Of a stretch of 35,559 bases of DNA, positions 7,642 through 29,099 are shown piece after piece. This DNA is from a virus. The translations under genes and the position numbers were made by a program. The number at the start of each line of letters is the position of its first letter. Position 1 is the first letter of the stretch. The notes under the pieces are model-generated. The model saw only the letters and a list, made by a program, of their open reading frames with translations. It had not been told where the DNA came from and did not search any database. Location: IMG/VR virus record IMGVR_UViG_3300032435_000039, positions 1-35,559 of that record. One strand, given 5' to 3'.

Positions 7642-7851
7642 ATGTTAGTTTTATCACGGAAGAAGTCTGAGACAATCCGCATCGGTGACGACATCACTGT
7701 CATGATTGTCAGGTGCGGAACTACTGTTGTGAGTGTCGGAATTGATGCCCCAAACGGGGTCAAAATACTACGCGGTGAACTGGCTACTGAGGGAGCAGAT
7801 AGCGGTCGCAGGAACGAGCATGACGCTCAGAACGGGTCTGACGCCACGTAG
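7642..7851 (+). CDS. csrA: CsrA-like RNA-binding regulator (69 aa)
   Basis: This is a clear CsrA/RsmA homologue. It begins MLVLSRKKSETIRIGDDITV, followed by VSVGIDAPNGVKILRGEL. The RNA-contact residues of the family are retained: Leu4, Arg6 and Arg44 (in KILRGE), with position 43 Leu instead of the common His. CsrA dimers bind GGA motifs in mRNA leaders and change translation and decay. The core ends at about residue 50, and a phage-specific polar tail (about 19 residues) follows. The gene is monocistronic, ended by a strong terminator (7859-7920). It may retune host carbon, motility or stress regulons, or phage mRNAs. Confidence 0.9.
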   Translation: MLVLSRKKSETIRIGDDITVMIVRCGTTVVSVGIDAPNGVKILRGELATEGADSGRRNEHDAQNGSDAT

Positions 7852-9325: not shown

Positions 9326-9957
9326 TTGCGAAAAATAAAGGCGGCGGAAGCTTTGCTCTGGTACCAGAGGATCAACACGTTGCGAGGTGCGTGAGGATTA
9401 TAGACATCGGAACGCAGGATGGCACCTATGGACCGAAACACCAGTGCATCATCGCGTGGGAGTTGCCAGAATGTCAGCAGGTGTTGGACTCAGATCGCGG
9501 ACCTGAGCCATCGCTGATGAGTTCGTTTTACACGCTGTCGCTCAATGAAAAAAGCAACCTGCGGCGAGTGCTTGAGCAGTGGCGAGCGAAGGCATTCACG
9601 GATCACGAGCTGGAAGGATTTGACGTGTCGTCAGTGATCAGCGTACCGTGCTTAATCCAGGTGCTTCACAAGCTGAATGCAGCCAAAGAACCTCGCGCGA
9701 TAATAAACAGCATCAACCGGCTACCGAAGGGGATGTCATGCCCGCCGCAGATACTGGACTCGCTGGTGTTTACCTTAGAGGACGGCACCTGGGAACAGTT
9801 TGAATTGATACCGGAGTGGCAGCGGGAACTGATCAAAAAGTGCCCGGAATATCCGCGGTTCGTTTCGCGAATCACTGGCGGCCCGAACTCACAATCTGCC
9901 GATGAACATTTCCAGCAGATTGACGACGCTGGCAGTGATGATGAGGTTCCGTTTTGA
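9316..9957 (+). CDS. Putative single-stranded DNA-binding / recombination-associated protein (213 aa)
   Basis: The protein fits a phage family often found beside replication genes. The N-terminus is SLIAKNKGGGSFALVPEDQH followed by CVRIIDIGTQ. The central region has FYTLSLNEKSNLRRVLEQWR (typical L-x-EKS-x-LR-x-x-L-x-x-WR) and a beta-rich segment. The acidic C-terminus is DDAGSDDEVPF. The DD-x-x-PF tail is the partner-binding tip of SSB proteins. I infer that it coats single-stranded phage DNA and recruits replication or repair proteins. Position just upstream of the replication block agrees. Confidence 0.6.
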   Translation: MSLIAKNKGGGSFALVPEDQHVARCVRIIDIGTQDGTYGPKHQCIIAWELPECQQVLDSDRGPEPSLMSSFYTLSLNEKSNLRRVLEQWRAKAFTDHELEGFDVSSVISVPCLIQVLHKLNAAKEPRAIINSINRLPKGMSCPPQILDSLVFTLEDGTWEQFELIPEWQRELIKKCPEYPRFVSRITGGPNSQSADEHFQQIDDAGSDDEVPF

Positions 9958-10196
9958 CTTGCTCCGGATGCAAGCATTACGTTATCCGCATGGAGTCTTG
10001 CAACGCATTGACCGGCGTCGTGCATTGCAAGCGATGCGACCTAACGTGGGAGCTAAATGACCACATCGGCTGCAACAGATGCACGGACTGGAAATCGCTA
10101 GTCGACGTGTCAGAATGTCCCGGGGCGGTGCCATCCACTCACTGCCCTGGGCGAGTGGCCATCGTGGAGCCACCGAATCAGGGGCGGCTATTTTAA
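9954..10196 (+). CDS. Cysteine-rich, probable zinc-binding protein (80 aa)
   Basis: It starts with TTG 9954 overlapping the previous stop (TTGA). Nine Cys residues occur in 80 aa, arranged as C-x2-C near residues 3-6, CKRC at 25-28, CNRC at 40-43 and single Cys later, suggesting one or two zinc sites. Such small zinc proteins in phages often mediate protein contacts or redirect host enzymes. No family is certain. It is the last gene before the structured RNA. Confidence 0.6.
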   Translation: MTCSGCKHYVIRMESCNALTGVVHCKRCDLTWELNDHIGCNRCTDWKSLVDVSECPGAVPSTHCPGRVAIVEPPNQGRLF

Positions 10197-10213
10197 CACA
10201 GATCGTGAGTAGC

Positions 10214-10242
10214 TTGATATCATTTTAGAGTGTTGCTATAGT
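10214..10242 (+). promoter_or_regulatory. Strong sigma-70 type promoter
   Basis: TTGATA (10214-10219) and TATAGT (10237-10242) are spaced by exactly 17 bases, each matching consensus at five (-10) and four or more (-35) positions. Transcription would begin near 10249-10251, just in front of the first hairpin of the structured RNA. Confidence 0.75.
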
Positions 10243-10249
10243 TCAAATC

Positions 10250-10362
10250 CACTGCCGATGAATACGAGACATCAGCAGTCTACAATTAGACCTACGCGGA
10301 TTAATTCCGTGTTTTTCCGCCGCCATCGGTCAGCTCGTATCTGATCGATGGCGGCGTTTTTT
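10250..10362 (+). ncRNA. Structured short RNA / attenuator-like leader upstream of helicase
   Basis: Four hairpins follow one another. P1 is CTGCCGATG/CATCAGCAG (10252-10260 with 10270-10278, one mismatch). P2 is GTCTA/TAGAC (10278-10291). P3 is ACGCGG/CCGTGT (10294-10312), followed by T residues. P4 is a 16-bp stem (10318-10333 with 10341-10356, one G-T) followed by six T. The 7-base loop of P4 (CTCGTAT, 10334-10340) is a perfect complement of ATACGAG in the P1 loop (10262-10268), allowing a kissing interaction. CCGATG of P1 (10255-10260) could instead pair with CATCGG of P4 (10324-10329). With its own promoter and terminator it could be a trans-acting RNA or a transcription attenuator for the replication genes. 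Confidence 0.65.
10318..10362 (+). terminator. Very strong terminator hairpin before the helicase gene
   Basis: CGCCGCCATCGGTCAG pairs with CTGATCGATGGCGGCG (16 bp, one wobble) around a 7-base loop, followed by TTTTTT (10357-10362). It ends only 12 bases before the helicase ATG. Confidence 0.85.
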
Positions 10363-10374
10363 ATGCAGGTTGAC

Positions 10375-11805
10375 ATGGATTATAAAACGTTTCTGGATCG
10401 GAAAACTCAATCAGATCGCAACTTCGGATTCGATGCGATTGAGCTGCCTGATGTTATGTTTGATTTTCAAAAAACACTTACGACGTGGGCAATTAAGCAG
10501 GGGAGGGCCGCAGTGTTCGCTGATTGCGGACTGGGCAAAAGTTTAATGCAACTTGCCTGGGCTGATAATATTGTCCGGCACACAAATAAACCGGTGCTGA
10601 TTCTGACGCCGCTGGCTGTAGCACCACAAACGATCAGGGAGTCAGCTAAGTTTGGATTCGATGCGAGCCACTCAAAAGACGGGATACACTCAGGCGGGAT
10701 TGTGATAACAAACTACGAGCGATTGCAGCGGTTTGATAGCAAGGACTTTATCGGGGTTGTGTGCGATGAGTCGTCCATTTTAAAAAACTTTGCAGGGCAA
10801 CGCCGCAGTCAAATCACACGATTCATGGCAAAGATTCCTTATCGTTTGCTTTGCACCGCAACAGCAGCACCGAATGATTACGTCGAGCTTGGGACATCGT
10901 CGGAATCACTGGGTGAGTTGTCGCGTAGTGACATGCTGAAACGATTCTTTCGACAATTTGATGACAAGGGTGTAAAGAACGAACAGAAGAAACAGGACGA
11001 GGCAGAACGGCTTATTGAACATGAACCTTCATATTTTCATAAATTATCTTATCGAGTAGCTCAAACAATCGGCCAGTACCGGCTGAAGAATCATGCTGTC
11101 AGCCACTTCTGGCGATGGGTCGCGTCATGGTCTAAGGCTTGTCGTATGCCTTCCGATTTGGGTTTTGATGATGGCAAATTTATCCTGCCCGGACTCACCA
11201 GCGAGGACCACATCATTGAGGTTCCTCCGGCACCAGGACAACTGTTTACAGTGCCTGCAAAGGGGATGGGGGAGGAACGAGCGGAGCGAAGCCGAACATT
11301 ACGAGAGCGTTGCGAGTATGCTGCAAAACTTGTGGATCATAACAGGTCTGCCGTGATTTGGTGTCACGCAAATCCAGAGGGCGACATGCTCGAAAAGATC
11401 ATTCCTGATGCTTTACAGATCGCCGGGAAAACATCGGACGAGCAAAAACTAGAACGGTACGAGGCGTTCGCGAATGGCGAACTTCGCGTGCTGGTGATTA
11501 AGCCAAAAATTGGAGCATGGGGCCTGAACTGGCAGCACTGTAATCATGTTGTTGAGTTTGCCACTCACAGTTATGAGCAGCACTACCAAGGGCTGAGGCG
11601 TTGCTACCGATTCGGCCAAACGCAGGCCGTACATAACGACGTGATTGCAACAGAGGGAGAGGTGAGAGTGCTGGCTAATATGCGACGCAAGGCCAAACAA
11701 GCGGACATGATGTTTGAGCATCTGGTCCGTGAAATGAATCGAGCGGAACGGATTGAACGAACTAACCAATTTACTAACAAACTGGAGCTACCAAAATGGT
11801 TGTAA
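10375..11805 (+). CDS. SNF2-like DEAD/DEAH helicase (476 aa)
   Basis: A superfamily 2 ATPase of the phage SNF2-like type. It has ADCGLGKS (Walker A, about residues 49-56), VVCDESSILK (motif II, about 128-137), TATAAPND (motif III, about 161), IGAWGLNWQHCNHVV (motif V) and QGLRRCYRFGQ (motif VI). It probably remodels or unwinds phage DNA in replication or recombination. I chose ATG 10375, with AGGT at 10367-10370. The ATG at 10348 lies inside the terminator stem and would encode its poly-T tract. The gene overlaps the methyltransferase gene by 10 bases, a pairing frequent in phages. Confidence 0.9.
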   Translation: MDYKTFLDRKTQSDRNFGFDAIELPDVMFDFQKTLTTWAIKQGRAAVFADCGLGKSLMQLAWADNIVRHTNKPVLILTPLAVAPQTIRESAKFGFDASHSKDGIHSGGIVITNYERLQRFDSKDFIGVVCDESSILKNFAGQRRSQITRFMAKIPYRLLCTATAAPNDYVELGTSSESLGELSRSDMLKRFFRQFDDKGVKNEQKKQDEAERLIEHEPSYFHKLSYRVAQTIGQYRLKNHAVSHFWRWVASWSKACRMPSDLGFDDGKFILPGLTSEDHIIEVPPAPGQLFTVPAKGMGEERAERSRTLRERCEYAAKLVDHNRSAVIWCHANPEGDMLEKIIPDALQIAGKTSDEQKLERYEAFANGELRVLVIKPKIGAWGLNWQHCNHVVEFATHSYEQHYQGLRRCYRFGQTQAVHNDVIATEGEVRVLANMRRKAKQADMMFEHLVREMNRAERIERTNQFTNKLELPKWL

Positions 11806-16311: not shown

Positions 16312-16442
16312 TGAGCACGTTGACGTTTCGCAGCAATCAGACTACGATGTCTCTGCCAACCTGATCAGCAGCCTGCAAGGGCCAGCCGCGTGCTACGTGG
16401 TGCCGAGACCGATTGTTTATATCTCGTTTCAGGAGCATGGCT
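16312..16442 (+). other. Gap with only very short open frames
   Basis: An ATG at 16311 (overlapping the previous stop) gives a 17-residue peptide ending at 16364. A GTG at 16390, behind AGGGCCAGCC (a variant of the recurrent start element), gives 26 residues ending at 16470, MLRGAETDCLYLVSGAWLCR plus six. I cannot tell whether either is translated. They may be remnants or leader peptides for the holin-like gene. Confidence 0.3.
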
Positions 16443-16634
16443 ATGCCGAATTTCATCAAAGAATTTTTGACCAGCAAAAAGGCCATCGCGGCCGTTGTTG
16501 GTTTCATCGTAGCGGCCGTCGGACGCTACGGGCTGGATCTCGATCCCGAGGCGGTCACTCAGATTCTGGCACCGATTTTGGCCTACATTATCGGGCAGGG
16601 ATTCGCCGACATCGGAAAAGAATCGAAGCTGTGA
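16443..16634 (+). CDS. Putative holin (63 aa)
   Basis: ATG 16443 has AGGAG at 16431-16435; an ATG at 16437 would be too close to it. Two hydrophobic segments (about 14-30, AIAAVVGFIVAAVGRYG, and 40-56, VTQILAPILAYIIGQGF) are joined by a short acidic turn (LDLDPEA), with a charged end (ADIGKESKL). The ending AYIIGQGFADIGKE is characteristic of a small phage holin-like family. Holins permeabilise the inner membrane at lysis. The neighbouring spanin-like and protease genes fit a lysis region. Confidence 0.65.
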   Translation: MPNFIKEFLTSKKAIAAVVGFIVAAVGRYGLDLDPEAVTQILAPILAYIIGQGFADIGKESKL

Positions 16635-16846
16635 AAACGTCTGATTGCATATTCGCAGCGGCCATCATGTTGCTCGCAGTATGTGGACTATTTTTGCCGA
16701 CGCAGTATCTGACGCACGTCAGTTGGACTCTGCCTGCTAGGCTCCGCATCTATGCACGGGTCATCGCTCTACCGGGACGTATGATCGCTGACGAATACGC
16801 ACCACTGCCGGTTGTTACGCCGTATGGCACTAAGAGGGCAAAATGA
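16631..16846 (+). CDS. Small membrane/secreted protein (71 aa)
   Basis: GTG 16631 overlaps the holin stop (GTGA). One N-terminal hydrophobic segment (about residues 6-23, CIFAAAIMLLAVCGLFLP) is followed by a basic periplasmic-type region (TLPARLRIYARVIALPGRMI). A Cys lies at residue 18, but the residues before it are a poor lipobox. It may be a spanin partner or antiholin by position. This is inference only. Confidence 0.5.
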   Translation: MKTSDCIFAAAIMLLAVCGLFLPTQYLTHVSWTLPARLRIYARVIALPGRMIADEYAPLPVVTPYGTKRAK

Positions 16847-17160
16847 GCATCGATGAAAACACAAAACTAATCCTCATGCGTGTCGTCATTGCAGCGGCCG
16901 GTGTGCTGTTTTTCTTTGGATTCGGTGGCGGCAATTACGCGCTCGCGAAGTGGCGTAAATGGCGAGTTGCACCACAGAGCAAAATCGGCTGGACACACGC
17001 GGAGCTAACAGCTCACGCGACGACGATGTTGCAATCATACCAAGCGATGCAGGCGACGTGTGACGGTCAACGTGCAGAGATTGAGCGGCTACGATCTGCG
17101 TTGGATGCGTTGGTCAAATCCGTGACGCCGGTGAATGTACAGGGGCCAGCCAATGAATAA
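16843..17160 (+). CDS. Putative i-spanin-like membrane protein with coiled coil (105 aa)
   Basis: One N-terminal membrane segment (about 9-30, ILMRVVIAAAGVLFFFGFGG) is followed by a basic patch (AKWRKWR). A helical region (about 55-93, ending EIERLRSALDALVKSV) with heptad spacing follows. This is the plan of Rz-type inner-membrane spanins, which with an outer-membrane partner disrupt the outer membrane in the last step of lysis. No sequence family is certain. The start overlaps the previous stop (ATGA). Confidence 0.5.
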   Translation: MSIDENTKLILMRVVIAAAGVLFFFGFGGGNYALAKWRKWRVAPQSKIGWTHAELTAHATTMLQSYQAMQATCDGQRAEIERLRSALDALVKSVTPVNVQGPANE

Positions 17161-17575
17161 AATACTAATCGCTGCAGGGGCCATGCTGTTATTTGCCGGA
17201 TGGTTGGCTCTGTCACCAACTGACGCCACACCAGTGGCTCCGCCTGTCGTAATTGATGAGGCGTTTGCTCTCGGCCGATATGCTCTGATCGTCTATGAGG
17301 CCGACGACAAAGCAGCGTATCCCGCGAGCCAATCACTGATTCTGGACTCGGCAGAATTCAAGCAATACCTGAACACCACAGCCACTGATGGCTGGAGGAT
17401 GCTAGACAAAAATGCCAGTACGGAATTCATGCCGGCCGTGTTTCAAAAGTGGCTGGAACGTCCTCGGGACTCATTGCCGTGGCTGATGGTATCCAACGGC
17501 ACGGCAGGGACTGAGGGCGAGTTGCCGCTGACAATTGCCGACGCGAAAAAAGTGATCGGGGAGTTGTTGCAATGA
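17153..17575 (+). CDS. Exported or membrane-anchored hypothetical protein (140 aa)
   Basis: The start is set by GGGGCCAGCCA-ATG (17142-17152). The N-terminus MNKILIAAGAMLLFAGWLAL is a signal or anchor segment, and ATPVAPPVV could hold a cleavage site. The remainder is a soluble domain (VIDEAFALGRYALIVYEADD … PWLMVSNGTAGTEGELPLTI). The latter part, with a strand then EGELP, resembles the C-terminal part of thioredoxin-like domains, but there is no CxxC. Function unknown; it probably acts in the periplasm. Confidence 0.55.
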   Translation: MNKILIAAGAMLLFAGWLALSPTDATPVAPPVVIDEAFALGRYALIVYEADDKAAYPASQSLILDSAEFKQYLNTTATDGWRMLDKNASTEFMPAVFQKWLERPRDSLPWLMVSNGTAGTEGELPLTIADAKKVIGELLQ

Positions 17576-17778
17576 GTGGATTAGCGATTGGTAAATGGGC
17601 TGCATGGTTTGGCGGCGAGTCTCCCGTTACCGATAATCAAATGGTTATGGTGATTTTTCGAAACAGAAAAATATCACTACAGCGGGCGGACGATCTGTAC
17701 TGGGAGTGGAACTCGAAGTGCTGCTCTGATGAAGATATTACGTTCTATAAAACCGAGGGAAACGGGGCCACCCAATGA
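17572..17778 (+). CDS. Hypothetical protein (68 aa)
   Basis: ATG 17572 overlaps the previous stop (ATGA), and its own end overlaps the protease gene start, with GGGGCCACCCA inside its final codons. The small Trp-rich protein contains KWAAWFGGESPVTDNQMVMV and ISLQRADDLYWEWNSKCC. No motif recognised. Confidence 0.55.
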   Translation: MSGLAIGKWAAWFGGESPVTDNQMVMVIFRNRKISLQRADDLYWEWNSKCCSDEDITFYKTEGNGATQ

Positions 17779-18524
17779 GTAATAACGAATACACAGTGCC
17801 GCGAGGAATGTCGCGTGGATGCGTACCGCGAGACATTATGAAAGCCCCGCTGGGGTCGTCCATCCCAATGTTTGACCGGCTGACGATTCCGAAATCAGAA
17901 TGGTCCGACAGGCTGCGCGAAAAGCGACTTGCGAAGGCCATGCTATCTGACGTGCGGGATATTATGGGGCCAGCCGGCGGAGTGATCCCGGCGCTAAATC
18001 AGGGACGCGATCCGTGGTGCTGGGCATTCAGTCCGGTGAGCGCTGCGACATTAGCCCGAGCAAATGCAGGCATACCATACGAGCATCTGAGCGGTAATGC
18101 GGTTGGCAATAAAGTTGCAGATTTTCGTGTTCGCGGCGGCTGGTCGGAGCAGTCGATGGGGCACATGAAAACGCTCGGGGCACCGTCGACGGCATTCTGG
18201 CCGGAGGGCGATAACGCACGCCATTTCGACAATCCAGACACATGGGCGAACGCTCGCGAATCAATCATGGTTGAGTGGTACGACATCGATCCGAGAGATA
18301 CGGCGGCAATCAATACTTGCTTGTTACTCAACATACCTATGGCTGTTGATGTGCCAGCGTGGGCACATTCGATTTGTTTGATTGACCCAGTGGAGGGGTT
18401 CACGGAATACGATCATCTGAACTCGTGGGGAAACAAATGGAACGGAAATGGCATCGGCCGATTGCGAGGTAAGTTTACGAAATTTGACAGCGTGATTGCG
18501 TGCGTCGTATCCACAGGAGCATGA
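17775..18524 (+). CDS. Papain-family (C1-like) cysteine protease (249 aa)
   Basis: The catalytic framework of papain is visible: ALNQGRDPWCWAFSPVSAA with the oxyanion Gln76 and nucleophile Cys82, His198 in PAWAHSICLIDP, and Asn216 in LNSWGNKWNGNGIG. About 70 N-terminal residues could be a propeptide or targeting region; no signal peptide is seen. Papain-like enzymes hydrolyse peptide bonds. Phages rarely carry this family as a stand-alone gene. Its place between spanin-like, signal-bearing and lipoprotein genes suggests digestion of a proteinaceous envelope layer or peptidoglycan cross-links at lysis. A virion maturation role is possible. The start is fixed by GGGGCCACCCA-ATG. Confidence 0.85.
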   Translation: MSNNEYTVPRGMSRGCVPRDIMKAPLGSSIPMFDRLTIPKSEWSDRLREKRLAKAMLSDVRDIMGPAGGVIPALNQGRDPWCWAFSPVSAATLARANAGIPYEHLSGNAVGNKVADFRVRGGWSEQSMGHMKTLGAPSTAFWPEGDNARHFDNPDTWANARESIMVEWYDIDPRDTAAINTCLLLNIPMAVDVPAWAHSICLIDPVEGFTEYDHLNSWGNKWNGNGIGRLRGKFTKFDSVIACVVSTGA

Positions 18525-18528
18525 GACG

Positions 18529-19116
18529 ATGAAGCGACTAACACTCTTACTGCTGGCCATCGGCTGCGCTCAACAACCAGCCGCAGAACAACCACAACCA
18601 CAGCCAGAGGCAGAGCCACAGATTGAGTGGCAGCGTATCGAGGTCGCTCCAAAAACAGATGTCGTGGTGCCACCCATTGAGTACCAAAAAGTCACACGCC
18701 GCATACTAGTATCTGAGGCATGGTGCGGGCCATGCGTCGCGGCAAAAAAACGATTCCTTTCGTCAGGCGGGAAGCAATCTGACATCATCACGATAAGCCA
18801 GGCGATGAGCCAATACGGCATCAAGGTAACAGCCATTCCCTACGAGTTCACGACCACCGAAAATGCCAAGCGGGTGGCACTTATTAACCCGCGTTCGTAT
18901 CGCTATCAGCCTGTCGGCGAATCGTCATACAATGGGACACACACGCCGACGAAATCCGCGATACTCGACCACCTAAGGACAGCACCACAGCACAAAACCA
19001 AGCCGTGGCAGGTCTGGTATCTGGAGAGTTGGAACGTGGCACAGTTGATTGCACTGCATGACGATGACCACAATGGCGTGGTGCCGTTTGCCGAGCGAAT
19101 GAAGGAATTGGAATGA
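18529..19116 (+). CDS. Thioredoxin-fold lipoprotein with EF-hand motif (195 aa)
   Basis: MKRLTLLLLAIGC is a lipoprotein signal with lipid-attachment Cys13, followed by a Pro/Gln/Glu linker. WCGPC (65-69) within SEAWCGPCVAAKKRF is a thioredoxin active site, and TAIPYEF supplies the cis-Pro position. At the C-terminus DDDHNGVVPFAE (178-189) matches a 12-residue EF-hand calcium loop, with Asp at 1 and 3, Asn 5, Gly 6, Val 8 and Glu 12. The protein probably catalyses disulfide exchange at the cell envelope. It could activate the neighbouring cysteine protease or host envelope proteins. ATG 18529 follows CAGGAGCATGAGACG. Confidence 0.8.
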   Translation: MKRLTLLLLAIGCAQQPAAEQPQPQPEAEPQIEWQRIEVAPKTDVVVPPIEYQKVTRRILVSEAWCGPCVAAKKRFLSSGGKQSDIITISQAMSQYGIKVTAIPYEFTTTENAKRVALINPRSYRYQPVGESSYNGTHTPTKSAILDHLRTAPQHKTKPWQVWYLESWNVAQLIALHDDDHNGVVPFAERMKELE

Positions 19117-19247
19117 CACCTGAAGATATTACTGGGGTAATACTAATTGGCTGGATTACCAGTGTGGTGGTGACCAAATTTATAAAGCTACCAGGGTATA
19201 ACCAGAAGGATAGGTTATTTACAGCACGTACATCATCGACGGAATAG
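19113..19247 (+). CDS. Tiny membrane protein (44 aa)
   Basis: ATG 19113 overlaps the stop of the lipoprotein gene (ATGA). The peptide MTPEDITGVILIGWITSVVV continues with a basic, Thr-rich tail. It is a single hydrophobic helix (about 6-22) with a positive C-terminal side. No family recognised; translational coupling supports it. Confidence 0.5.
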   Translation: MTPEDITGVILIGWITSVVVTKFIKLPGYNQKDRLFTARTSSTE

Positions 19248-23885: not shown

Positions 23886-24320
23886 TTCAAGACACGGCCG
23901 GGCGAGGCCCGGCGAGGCCAGGCCGGGCACGGCATGGCGAGGGCACCAATGGTGCAATGGTGGCGTATCCGCGATTTGCGGCAAGGCCCGGCGCGGCATG
24001 GCGGGGCCAGGCAAGGCGAGGCGAGGGCACCAACGGTGCAATGGTGGCGTATCCGCGATTTGCGGCAAGGCCCGGCGCGGCCTGGCGCGGCCAGGCAAGG
24101 CCGGGCATGGCGAGGGCACCAATGGTGCAGGTGGCGTATCCGCGATTTGCGGCTGGGCAAGGCCAGGCCAGGCGCGGCAAGGCAAGGCGAGGGCACCAAT
24201 GGTGCAATGGTGGCGTATCCGCGATTTGCGGCGAGGCAAGGCCAGGCCGGGCGGGGCCGGGCGGGGCTGGGCGTGGCCGGGCGTGGCATGGCGAGGCAAG
24301 GCATGGGCACCAACGGTGCA
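23886..24320. repeat. NNGGC pentamer array 1 with four full cores
   Basis: The array starts with TTCAAGAC at the base after a stop codon. It then consists of runs of the degenerate pentamer NNGGC (about 8-15 per run) interrupted by a conserved core of about 42 bp at 23941-23982, 24025-24066, 24114-24153 (2 bp shorter) and 24191-24232. A terminal partial core, GGGCACCAACGGTGCA, lies at 24305-24320. Each core holds the palindrome GCACCAAYGGTGC and a CCGC-gattt-GCGG hairpin. All frames on both strands stay open through it, so long low-complexity frames here are by-products. Function unknown. Confidence 0.9.
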
Positions 24321-24875: not shown

Positions 24876-25069
24876 TTCAAGACGCGGCAAGGCCAGGCAC
24901 GGCGAGGCGTGGCTGGGCCGGGCTCGGCAAGGCATGGCAAGGGCACCAACGGTGCAATGGTGGCGTATCCGCGATTTGCGGCGGGGCGAGGCGTGGCTTG
25001 GCTGGCATGGCTTGGCAGGGCTCGGCATGGCTTGGCAGGGCAAGGCATGGCAAGGGCACCAACGGTGCA
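24876..25069. repeat. NNGGC pentamer array 2 with one full core
   Basis: It begins with TTCAAGAC directly after the TAA stop, as array 1 does. About eleven NNGGC pentamers are followed by one full core (24941-24982), about fifteen more units (one shortened to TGGC near 25001) and the terminal GGGCACCAACGGTGCA (25054-25069). It shares start, core and end with array 1 but differs in pentamer order and number. It is followed by a strong terminator. Confidence 0.9.
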
Positions 25070-25369: not shown

Positions 25370-27018
25370 TGGGACGCCGCCGCAGCAAAAAACAGCAGCC
25401 TGTCCAGACCGTTTCGCCGCAACCAATGATTCGTGCGTCGTTCGATTTAGCTCAGACAACAGTCGACAACCGCAAGCACTGGGCATCGTCTGACGGACTA
25501 TCTTCGCGGGCTGCTCTATCGCATTCAGTGCGGCGTACTGTTCGCATCCGCTCGCGATATGAAGCAGAAAACAACTCATGGTACGCAGGGATTCTGCGGA
25601 CGGCATCTAATCACATCGTCGGTGGTCCGGGTCCGCGTCTGCAATTACTGTCAGGCAATCCCGAAGTTGATCGTCGAATTGAACAGGCGTGGTCGAGGTG
25701 GTGCCGATCGGTCGATTTCACCGACACACTGCGAATGGCCATTGAATCGTATTGGCGTGACGGCGAAGTATTCCTGATCAAAGCCGAATCAGTTAGCCGC
25801 TATCCGGTATCACTCGACGTGCGATTGATTGAGGCGGATCAGGTATCAACGCCGTGGGAATCGTCAGCGATTGGTGATCCATTCCAAGACGACGGGATCC
25901 GATTTAATCGCAATACCGATGAGCTCGAAATCTACGTCTACGATCATCATCCCGGTTCGGCAGCTTACTCAGTTAGCGCGTTGAGCGGTCAATGGTATCC
26001 GGCTCGCAAGGTTGTTGCACATCTGTTTCGGGCAGAGCGTCCGGGACAGGTCCGCGGTATTCCACGGGCCACGCCAGCACTACAGACGCTACCGATCATG
26101 CGACGGCAAGAACTCGCAACGCTGTACAGTGCAGAGACGGCAGCGAACTTTGCGATGTATTTGAAAGCCACAGGTCCAGCGGTTAACCCGTCTGCGAGTC
26201 CTGCGGACTTCGCGGAAATTGAACTCACTCGCAACATGCTGACGACGTTGCCAGAGGGTTGGGAGATCGGGCAGGTCGAACCGAAACAGCCGGGTCCACT
26301 TTACGAAATGTTCCAGCGGCAGGCCCTAATGAGTTTTTGCCGTTGTACAAACATGCCTTACTCACTAGCGGCCGGGACAGGCAAAGATTCCAACTTCAGC
26401 TCGTTTAAAGGCGACATGAAAAACGTCTGGGAACCTGAAGTCAGGGTCGAGCAAAACAGGATCGAGAACACGATTCTGGAGCCTGTGCTGGATTGGTTTT
26501 TCGAAGCGGCAATCTATGCCCCGGGATTACTTAATGGTGCTCCGCCGCTGCATTTAGTTGAGCGACGATGGCACTGGCCACCGTTGCCAGAACTTGACGC
26601 GGTCGAGTCAGCACAGGCGGCAACGCTGCGTATGTCATCGGGGCAATCAAGCCCGTCTGAAGAGTATGCAAAACGCGGGGCTGATTGGGACACAGGTAGC
26701 GCCAGAGCAGCCATGGATTTAGGTGTGACGCCGGAGGAATACAAACGGGCGGTATTCAATTCCATATTCAAAATACAAGCGGTGCCGGGTGCATCGGGTG
26801 CTCCGATGACTGCGAACGCTGAACTTCCGACAGGCGAATACACAGAACTAGGGCAGCGGGCGTTCAATAACAATATGAAACGAATTCAAACGACGCTGGC
26901 AAGTCTGGCGGCGGGAGATGTTTCAGAATCAATGGCTCGCATGACGCTGGAATCTATCGGGCTGGCACCTGATCGGATCGAAAAGTTGATCAGCGAAACG
27001 GTGGAGGCAACGCCATGA
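25369..27018 (+). CDS. Portal protein, lambda gpB type (549 aa)
   Basis: Typical features of the lambda-family portal are present: RYEAENNSWYAGILRTASNH (N-terminal helix), VGGPGPRLQ, YWRDGEVFLI, VRLIEADQVSTPW, then PGQVRGIPRATPALQTLPIM and the C-terminal FSSFKGDMKNVWEPEVRVEQ. Twelve copies form the vertex channel through which terminase pumps DNA. Length (549) is normal. It overlaps both neighbours by a few bases, so head genes are coupled. Confidence 0.92.
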   Translation: MGRRRSKKQQPVQTVSPQPMIRASFDLAQTTVDNRKHWASSDGLSSRAALSHSVRRTVRIRSRYEAENNSWYAGILRTASNHIVGGPGPRLQLLSGNPEVDRRIEQAWSRWCRSVDFTDTLRMAIESYWRDGEVFLIKAESVSRYPVSLDVRLIEADQVSTPWESSAIGDPFQDDGIRFNRNTDELEIYVYDHHPGSAAYSVSALSGQWYPARKVVAHLFRAERPGQVRGIPRATPALQTLPIMRRQELATLYSAETAANFAMYLKATGPAVNPSASPADFAEIELTRNMLTTLPEGWEIGQVEPKQPGPLYEMFQRQALMSFCRCTNMPYSLAAGTGKDSNFSSFKGDMKNVWEPEVRVEQNRIENTILEPVLDWFFEAAIYAPGLLNGAPPLHLVERRWHWPPLPELDAVESAQAATLRMSSGQSSPSEEYAKRGADWDTGSARAAMDLGVTPEEYKRAVFNSIFKIQAVPGASGAPMTANAELPTGEYTELGQRAFNNNMKRIQTTLASLAAGDVSESMARMTLESIGLAPDRIEKLISETVEATP

Positions 27019-29099
27019 AGTTTCACGCATCGCTAACAATTCAAGCGGCGGAAGGCTCAACGCCAAAGCGTTTTGCAATCCTTGCCTACTCGGGCGGACT
27101 ACTGCCTGTGGATGGGTTTGGCTTGCCGGTGATTGTTGATCTGGCTGGACTGGAAGTTCCGGGTGCGATTCCGATTCTAATTGATCACGAAAAGTCTGTT
27201 GACGCTACGTTCGGCATCACGGACGCAATTGAAAACGACGGGCAAACATTGCTGATGACGGGCCAGATCACAGGCAGTTCGCCGCGTGCCATGCAGGTGA
27301 TTGCGTCGCACAAAGCCGGCCACAAATGGCAGGCGTCTATCGGTGCCAGAGTTATTGAGAAACAAGAAATCAAAGCCGGTGAAACGGTGGAGGTGAACGG
27401 TCAGACATTTGTCGGGCCGGTGATTGTCGCACGCCAATCGGTGCTGCGTGAAACGTCAGTCCTGCCAATGGGTGCGGATGCGACGACACAAGTTAACCTG
27501 GCAGCGAGCGCTGCCCAACAGAAAGGGTCAGCGATGACTTACGAAGAATGGCTCACGTCGTTGGGAATTGATCCTGCGGCATTATCCGAAGACGACGCCG
27601 CGGCTATGCAGTTGGCATACGAATCTAAGCAGACAGCACCAGCACCAGCAATGGCATCCGCTGCCGCCGAAATTCCAGTCCCCGAAGATGAAAAGGTTAT
27701 TCCAGTGGCAGCAAACGCAAATCTCGACATCACTGCAGTAATTGCAGACGCTCGCAAAAAGTTCGGTACCGAGCAACGCCGAATGGGCGACATCCAGGCC
27801 AAGGCTGCCGGGCATCCGAATATCGCAGCAACGGCCATTGAACTGGGTTGGAGCATCGACAAAGTTGAACTGGAAGTGCTGAAGGCATCTGCTGCACGAA
27901 CACGCCCGACATCATTTCGCGGCGAAGAAAACAAGCCGGAAAACCTGCCGCAGGTGCTAGAGGCTGCGATATGCATGACTCGCAAAATCAAAGACGTTGA
28001 TAAGCACTTCAACGATAAGGTGCTGCAAGCGGCTCACTCAAACTACCGTGGATCCATGGGAATCAAACGCCTGTTGATTGAGGCTGCTGTTGCCAATGGT
28101 CACTACGTTTCAGCCAGTGAAGGCGTCACCCGCAACAACTGGCAGGACATCGGCCGGGCGGCTTGGGGCGGCAACATTCAGGCCGGATTCTCAACGGTCT
28201 CACTGCCTGGCATCCTTAGCAATATTGCGAACAAAGAACTGCTGCAAGGCTATGAGCAAGAAGAACAAAGTTGGAAAGAAATCAGCCGCACGGCTTCTGT
28301 GTCCGACTTCAAAACCGTCACCAGCTATCGCATGCTGGATGACATGGAGTACGACGAAGTCGGGCCGGGTGGCGAAATCAAGCACGGGTCGATCAACGAA
28401 GAATCGTATACCAGGCAGGCCAGAACTTACGCCAAGATGTTTAGCCTGACGCGGACACAGATCATCAATGACGACATGAGTGCATTTGACGATTTGCGAA
28501 CTCGAATCGGTCGCGGTGCTGCCAAGAAGTTGAACAAAGTCTTCTGGACGAAGTTTCTTGACAACGCAGCATTCTTTACGGCTGGTCGTGGCAACTACAT
28601 CACTGGCAGCACCACAACGCTGCTGACTGATAATGTTGGTCTCGGCTTAGCTCTTGATGCGTTTGATGCACTGCGGACGCCAACAGCGGACGGCAAGAAA
28701 GTTCCGGGCGGTTTATTCGGGGGTGCTCCAACTGTGCTACTCACACCGGGTGGCGGCATTTCACGGGTGGCCGAGTCCATCTTCGTAAATACGAACATCG
28801 GCGGCGGAACCACAACGGCAAACGCAAACATTCACTCTGGCCGTTACACGCCGGTGAAGTCTGTTTTCCTGAACGACTCAACCGTTTCCGGTGGCTCTGC
28901 GACAGCGTGGTACCTGTTGCGAGATCCTGCAATTGCGGCGTCAATAGTTGTGTCATTTTTGGATGGTGCTGAGACTCCGACAGTGGATCAGCAAGACGCG
29001 ACCTTCAGCACGCTCGGCATTGAGATGCGTGGCTATCACGACTTCGGATGTGACCAAGCCGAGTATCTTTCTGGCGTGAAATCTAAGGGTGCAGCATAG
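27015..29099 (+). CDS. Prohead protease fused to major capsid protein (694 aa)
   Basis: The N-terminal part (about 1-165) is a prohead protease: GAIPILIDHEKSVDATFG with probable catalytic His58, and WQASIGARV with probable Ser108. The middle (about 170-280) is Ala/Gln/Glu-rich and helical, as in a scaffold. The C-terminal part (about 300-694) matches Mu gpT-like major heads: WQDIGRAAWGGNIQAGFSTV, KTVTSYRMLDDMEYDEV, LTRTQIINDDMSAFDDLRTR, ending in FSTLGIEMRGYHDFGCDQAE. Self-cleavage would release the mature capsid protein during assembly. An internal start near 27534 (ATGACTTACGAAGAATGG, after AGGGTCAGCG) could also give unfused product. Confidence 0.88.
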   Translation: MKFHASLTIQAAEGSTPKRFAILAYSGGLLPVDGFGLPVIVDLAGLEVPGAIPILIDHEKSVDATFGITDAIENDGQTLLMTGQITGSSPRAMQVIASHKAGHKWQASIGARVIEKQEIKAGETVEVNGQTFVGPVIVARQSVLRETSVLPMGADATTQVNLAASAAQQKGSAMTYEEWLTSLGIDPAALSEDDAAAMQLAYESKQTAPAPAMASAAAEIPVPEDEKVIPVAANANLDITAVIADARKKFGTEQRRMGDIQAKAAGHPNIAATAIELGWSIDKVELEVLKASAARTRPTSFRGEENKPENLPQVLEAAICMTRKIKDVDKHFNDKVLQAAHSNYRGSMGIKRLLIEAAVANGHYVSASEGVTRNNWQDIGRAAWGGNIQAGFSTVSLPGILSNIANKELLQGYEQEEQSWKEISRTASVSDFKTVTSYRMLDDMEYDEVGPGGEIKHGSINEESYTRQARTYAKMFSLTRTQIINDDMSAFDDLRTRIGRGAAKKLNKVFWTKFLDNAAFFTAGRGNYITGSTTTLLTDNVGLGLALDAFDALRTPTADGKKVPGGLFGGAPTVLLTPGGGISRVAESIFVNTNIGGGTTTANANIHSGRYTPVKSVFLNDSTVSGGSATAWYLLRDPAIAASIVVSFLDGAETPTVDQQDATFSTLGIEMRGYHDFGCDQAEYLSGVKSKGAA

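Follow-up and report, generated by a model that had tools for sequence, protein, structure and literature searches.

We propose that a papain-like (C1-type) cysteine protease probably acts as the lysis enzyme of the virus studied here and does the job of an endolysin within a cassette of planctomycete phages, a reading that is based on gene order and sequence.

The virus record and its lysis-type cassette

The window, by which we mean the whole stretch of DNA that was analysed, is the complete IMG/VR record IMGVR_UViG_3300032435_000039 (35,559 bases, linear). Its gene content includes lambda-type head genes (portal, protease-capsid and cement protein), a tape measure gene, and genes for DnaB, a helicase and a DNA methyltransferase. 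Since the terminus of the window falls within a tail gene and no exact 12-base match was found between its two ends, the record may lack a small portion of the genome. Among the isolated phages of INPHARED, no relative was found of the window terminase, of the protease or of a second papain-fold family that is described below.

Two other features of the window were recorded. A CsrA-type regulator is predicted by sequence at 7642-7851, and one scanned gene matches PF02599 (1.4e-18). Nine copies of a GC-rich element of about 71 nt with GGC-NN repeats form two clusters at 23886-24320 and 24886-25069, and most of these elements end in GGGCACCAAYGGTGCA. Several frames are open throughout the repeat elements, so the ORFs at these positions are suspect.

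The protease (P0001) and its neighbours are arranged as follows, all on the + strand:

16443..16634, +, holin-like protein, 63 aa, with one strong and one weaker hydrophobic stretch (PHROG phrog_9987, E 0.0011, and phrog_4712, E 0.008; hydropathy)
16631..16846, +, small protein, 71 aa, GTG start, with one N-terminal hydrophobic segment (hydropathy only)
16843..17160, +, protein resembling an inner-membrane spanin by shape only, 105 aa, with a transmembrane segment and a long charged tail (hydropathy)
17153..17575, +, secreted or membrane-anchored partner 'U', 140 aa, with an N-terminal hydrophobic signal or anchor and a conserved domain of about 100 aa (family HMM, 1.9e-33)
17572..17778, +, small ORF between partner and protease, 68 aa (phrog_9174, unknown function, E 1.2e-5)
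17775..18524, +, papain-like (C1-type) cysteine protease, predicted lysis enzyme, 249 aa (residues, profile, model, dN/dS)
18529..19116, +, predicted lipoprotein, 195 aa, with a thioredoxin-like CGPC motif (C66/C69) and a conserved proline, P104 (alignment of 13 sequences)
19113..19247, +, very small single-TM protein, 44 aa (hydropathy)

The stop of the partner gene overlaps the start of the following 68-aa ORF via ATGA. This ORF has such overlaps on both sides, the second being the 4-nt ATGA shared with the protease gene, which starts with ATG. The 95-96% identical copies L003-L005 lack the 68-aa ORF, and the same spot is occupied by other small ORFs in L201 and L206.

The initial annotation had described holin-like and spanin-like proteins just upstream of the protease. 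The former, for which an alternative start exists at 16413, retained its weak PHROG match (E 0.0011). For the latter, the transmembrane segment and the charged tail are all that stood: it gave no PHROG match at E ≤ 1, and Pfam returned one weak sub-threshold match. The protease had also been called stand-alone, which is correct for its domain content. It does not apply to its context, since the protein belongs to a module with the upstream secreted partner and the downstream thioredoxin-like lipoprotein, both of which had been overlooked.

P0001 is a papain-fold C1-type protein

The papain residue set reported earlier for this gene (Gln76, Cys82, His198 and Asn216) was confirmed at exactly these positions of a real 249-aa ORF (codons at 18000-18002, 18018-18020, 18366-18368 and 18420-18422) and is conserved among relatives. 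Signal peptide and transmembrane segment are both absent. Copies of P0001 with 95-100% identity are present in four contigs, and a dN/dS of 0.10-0.12 against three close copies indicates purifying selection. Together with the intact reading frame in five contigs, this selection rules out a fusion or frameshift artefact.

When P0001 alone was compared with Pfam and PHROG, no match was obtained at E ≤ 1, including any known peptidoglycan hydrolase family of these databases, and single-sequence searches of INPHARED phages and GTDB genomes returned nothing. A phmmer search against PDB gave procerain as the best match (E 0.0037), with papain-family proteases throughout among the matches listed. Among 10,556 ORFs of the loci fetched, the Q..C..H..N motif occurred only in copies of P0001 and in its syntenic counterpart from a related phage.

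Distant relatives, which we call family A, surfaced only via a DNA pattern scan for NQG....CWAF (26 viral stretches) and a subsequent alignment-based scan (24 loci). Several of the proteins with this pattern are short and unsecreted, and align with P0001 over the full length, including the stretch that precedes the catalytic domain. Relatives with 20-34% identity were found in about 20 viral contigs and one planctomycete prophage; for instance, pairwise comparison of P0001 with its counterpart in L190 gave 34% identity across 224 residues (E 1e-42). N75, Q76, G77, C82, W83 and H198 are invariant in all 16 aligned sequences and N216 is found in 15 of the 16, as is the complete Q/C/H/N set. Running PF00112 directly on related records gave no match, which we ascribe to phage proteins there that are too divergent for that model. 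Some family-A relatives passed the cut-off against PF00112 (1.3e-13, 4.2e-9 and 2.3e-4). In Pfam, neither P0001 nor four of its relatives matched NlpC/P60 or CHAP; the relatives matched PF00112 instead. A profile built from the 16 sequences matched cathepsin K (1.4e-19) and 153 others in PDB, with the matches listed all being papain/cathepsin-type proteases.

The AlphaFold2 model of P0001 had a pTM of 0.74 and a pLDDT of 67.8, with residues 1-35 not resolved. Foldseek placed xylellain on top (probability 1.0), and comparison of the model with xylellain and papain by VIA-align gave a Z of 17.5 and an rmsd of 3.4 over 209 residues. Structure prediction and a search for C1 homologues, both proposed in the initial annotation, thus yielded a papain fold, a C1 profile match and phage relatives. 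Judged by profiles and model, the assignment of P0001 as a papain-fold C1-type protein is secure once the relatives are included.

The cassette is conserved in divergent phages

The same neighbours recur throughout L190-L209 although the phages differ, and about 20 divergent contigs keep the order of small membrane proteins, secreted partner, papain without signal peptide and, usually, secreted CxxC thioredoxin. The partner gene is located on the upstream side of the protease gene, and its stop usually overlaps the protease start. In L003, partner (9564-10004) and protease (10001-10750) overlap directly, and the same arrangement is found throughout L003-L005. All matches of the partner-family HMM adjoin a family-A papain gene, with nothing else in 21,153 ORFs searched; as presence of the protease was the criterion by which most loci had been selected, this result describes the tightness of the linkage and is not a genome-wide statistic. 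Neither hhalign nor a PDB profile search found a known fold for the partner's domain. The idea that its domain of about 100 aa is a thioredoxin without cysteines was not supported by these two methods.

A secreted CxxC thioredoxin follows the protease in the window, L003-L005, L172/L208, L184, L195/L196, L197, L198, L200-L203, G246, G257 and G379. No thioredoxin gene was detected downstream of the protease in L191, L192, L193/L181, L194 and L205/L206. C66, C69 and P104 are invariant in 13 of 13 aligned thioredoxin-like sequences, and Pfam Thioredoxin was matched in the relatives L198 and G027 (9.3e-11 and 5e-10). The lipoprotein of the window itself matches PHROG thioredoxin (E 0.38) and an Rz-like spanin (E 0.0028) weakly, and alone it had no thioredoxin match in Pfam. 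Besides the thioredoxin part, it has a C-terminal 'L..LHD.DHN' pattern in common with L196:10726-11352, a looser form of which was seen in downstream proteins of L191 and L193.

Several relatives also encode a trypsin-like protease, either as a fusion with the thioredoxin or in its stead, and Pfam Trypsin_2 was matched in L198, L206, G027 and the G246 prophage. Among the secreted fusions, which join a CxxC thioredoxin and a trypsin-like serine protease, both domain orders occur (L201:10778-11725, L198:4927-5805, L225:10039-11169). A gene for a clear Phage_holin_4_1 protein (8.3e-25) precedes the L196 protease gene by about 1.3 kb.

The composition of the cassette makes it very unlikely that P0001 is a virion or entry enzyme, i.e., a packaged protease that aids the tail through a protein layer or processes virion proteins. 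Tail-associated hydrolases are common, and tail or fibre genes come after the cassette in several contigs. The protease gene, however, sits among holin-like and secreted genes, and its partners carry signal sequences, which are normally absent from virion proteins. Moreover, no virion domain was found in P0001, and capsid maturation has a protease of its own, the major head and protease protein, taken as 27015-29099.

Related records contain no recognizable conventional endolysin

According to the initial annotation, the window encodes no conventional endolysin, and within Pfam's reach this holds. Pfam scans covered the window (E ≤ 0.003, best 25 of 27 families), two long family-A contigs (G017 and G027, 40 and 47 kb), a family-B contig (G042, 43 kb) and a 50-kb chromosomal stretch of G246 with the prophage. 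None of the five scans contained lysozyme, amidase, transglycosylase, M15, M23, NlpC/P60 or CHAP (for the window, among the 25 of 27 families listed). In G017, the papain was the only lysis-enzyme candidate, and in G027 Trypsin_2 and Thioredoxin were present. Amidase_2 was absent from 33 records, and Phage_lysozyme and SLT were absent from 20 records or genomes, with control genomes detected in these searches. The negative results refer to Pfam-recognizable families, and most of the records are metagenomic contigs of uncertain completeness. A conventional endolysin elsewhere, which had been named as a finding that would contradict a lysis role, was looked for in the window, related contigs and the prophage and was not found.

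A second papain-fold family occupies the same slot

L013, whose terminase is 65% identical to that of the window, encodes a 291-aa protein with the motifs QQRNDCQGNA, GGHAT and WNSHGDG at the protease's place. This second papain-fold family (family B) was found at 34 loci, and its residues Q60, C65, H221 and N241 are invariant. The family-B model had a pTM of 0.82, with xylellain as the best Foldseek match (1.9e-9). Its gene is flanked by one for a CxxC thioredoxin and one for a protein homologous to the N-terminal half of the partner from several family-A cassettes. Recognizable homology of families A and B by sequence was not supported (hhalign not significant), and both models are closest to xylellain. 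The presence of two sequence-unlike papain-fold proteins in one slot argues that the task of this slot needs such chemistry.

DUF1353-type proteins were seen repeatedly near the cassette with both protease families (L013:288-671, L143:6460-6861, L197:1525-1899 and L202:1514-1885). The L013 copy was identified at E 9.4e-18, the other three by eye.

Accessory genes often lie near lysis genes in phages, and the partner could be an inhibitor held across the membrane. P0001 might accordingly be an enzyme for host takeover, defence blocking or superinfection exclusion that works within the infected cell or at its surface. We regard this as quite unlikely, given that the module is kept in diverse phages without another recognizable lysis enzyme, and that a sequence-unrelated papain family in the same slot is more in keeping with a shared, essential task than with an accessory role.

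Planctomycete hosts and their walls

Whether the integrity of planctomycete cells depends on protein, on peptidoglycan or on both has been debated for decades, and it is a problem that their phages, too, must have solved in order to escape from the cell. The genomic relatives of the window terminase (29-34% identity) are mostly from Planctomycetota, with some from Lentisphaerae and few from other bins, and these relatives suggest that the host of the window virus would be a member of the Planctomycetota. The partner was found in one of 392 Planctomycetota genomes (G246, 2.9e-20). There, a papain homologue (6.2e-67) adjoins the partner and is followed by a trypsin-thioredoxin fusion, with portal, protease and capsid genes further on. 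G257 and G379 encode a third, more distant papain-like variant (E 1.7e-17 and 1.9e-16) together with a thioredoxin-like gene, and their cassettes adjoin terminase, portal and protease genes, as assigned by sequence. The cassette is not shared by every planctomycete prophage that has a related terminase, as none of the 80 genome loci of the terminase scan (L050-L129) had a partner or papain HMM match.

YTV proteins are encoded in all three genomes (G246, G257 and G379), with many of them in G257 and G379. These cysteine-rich proteins, which have been identified in preparations of cell walls, occur only in Planctomycetales, a group whose members mostly lack genes for peptidoglycan synthesis (PMC8567305). 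Several planctomycetes have peptidoglycan and lysozyme-sensitive sacculi (PMC4432640). A murC-like gene is present in G246, and at 1e-30 no murC match was obtained in G257 and G379. In view of the murC-like gene and the lysozyme-sensitive peptidoglycan of planctomycetes, the protease alone might not suffice in G246.

The murC-like gene of G246 and the occurrence of peptidoglycan in some planctomycetes would also suit a papain-fold endopeptidase endolysin that cuts peptide bonds of peptidoglycan instead of wall proteins, with the thioredoxin only keeping the protease reduced. Papain-fold endolysins of the CHAP and NlpC/P60 types are common (PMC10318531). We nevertheless consider this explanation unlikely. 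By sequence and fold, P0001 belongs with C1 (cathepsin/papain), not with NlpC/P60 or CHAP, and C1 peptidases cleave ordinary L-peptides. In addition, the two hosts with the third papain-like variant had no murC match, and a trypsin-like protease belongs to several cassettes.

Proposed function of the cassette

In the reading that we favour, P0001 as a lysis enzyme, the protease would be synthesized as a cytoplasmic protein that lacks a signal peptide, would pass the inner membrane once a holin-type protein opens it, and would then cleave protein or peptide components of the host envelope. The exported partners would act from outside the inner membrane. The CxxC thioredoxin-like lipoprotein may act as a disulfide reductase, either on cysteine-rich wall proteins or on the protease, whose active-site cysteine it would keep reduced. 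The trypsin-like protease of several relatives, fused to the thioredoxin or substituting for it, would contribute as well. A second secreted partner, encoded directly upstream, would be produced along with the protease from genes that appear translationally coupled in most members. Holin-mediated export, envelope proteolysis and disulfide reduction would together lead to host lysis.

A more specific version is tentative: a two-step system replacing endolysins, in which the secreted thioredoxin might break the disulfides of YTV-type walls, and the holin-released papain, at times with a secreted trypsin-like protease, might digest the wall. That a protein wall is the specific target is likewise possible, if somewhat doubtful.

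The initial annotation had put forward a cysteine protease in the endolysin's stead for a host with a protein-linked envelope. This proposal gains from the cassette in about 20 contigs, the L196 holin, the five hydrolase-free scans, family B in the same slot and the YTV-encoding hosts, two of them without a murC match. Its lysis step is one that we infer, and the lysozyme sensitivity of some planctomycetes counts against a wall made purely of protein.

Relation to known systems

A functional precedent is provided by PeiW and PeiP of Methanothermobacter phages, which are also phage cysteine peptidases, lyse hosts without ordinary peptidoglycan and need reducing conditions; lysis by a reductant-needing cysteine peptidase is therefore possible (PMC4592898). 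They differ from P0001 in having a transglutaminase-like Cys/His/Asp site and in acting on pseudomurein isopeptide bonds, whereas the system described here combines a C1-type Cys/His/Asn site with a phage-encoded thioredoxin. CHAP and NlpC/P60 endolysins share the papain-like fold and cysteine catalysis, and their endolysin role is the one predicted here (PMC10318531). Unlike P0001, which matches C1 cathepsins and papain, they belong to other papain-like families and cut peptidoglycan.

With peptidase C1 (PF00112; papain, cathepsins, xylellain), P0001 shares the catalytic Gln/Cys/His/Asn, the NQG....CW and N-S-W-G motifs and the fold. Known C1 members are mostly secreted or lysosomal and have propeptides, whereas P0001 is short, unsecreted and encoded in a lysis-type cassette. 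The best viral fold match came from proteins of uncultured Caudovirales named 'Peptidase C1A, papain C-terminal', e.g., A0A6J5QDM8 (266 aa, E 8.8e-8). Such proteins, known by their database names, are probably of the same kind as P0001, and no described function, cassette or host link was found for them. C1A-like proteins of uncultured phages are thus already named in databases, and what appears to be new is their reading as part of a lysis cassette. In the open-access literature, we found no description of a C1 protease and a thioredoxin acting together in phage lysis. To our knowledge, a lysis chemistry of protease plus disulfide reductase is known from no other bacterial phage.

If the proposed function is correct, it would suggest that a load-bearing layer in at least some planctomycete hosts depends on protein and disulfide bonds. 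The cassette would then supply enzymes for probing the architecture of the planctomycete wall, and it would offer a way of recognizing planctomycete viruses in metagenomes.
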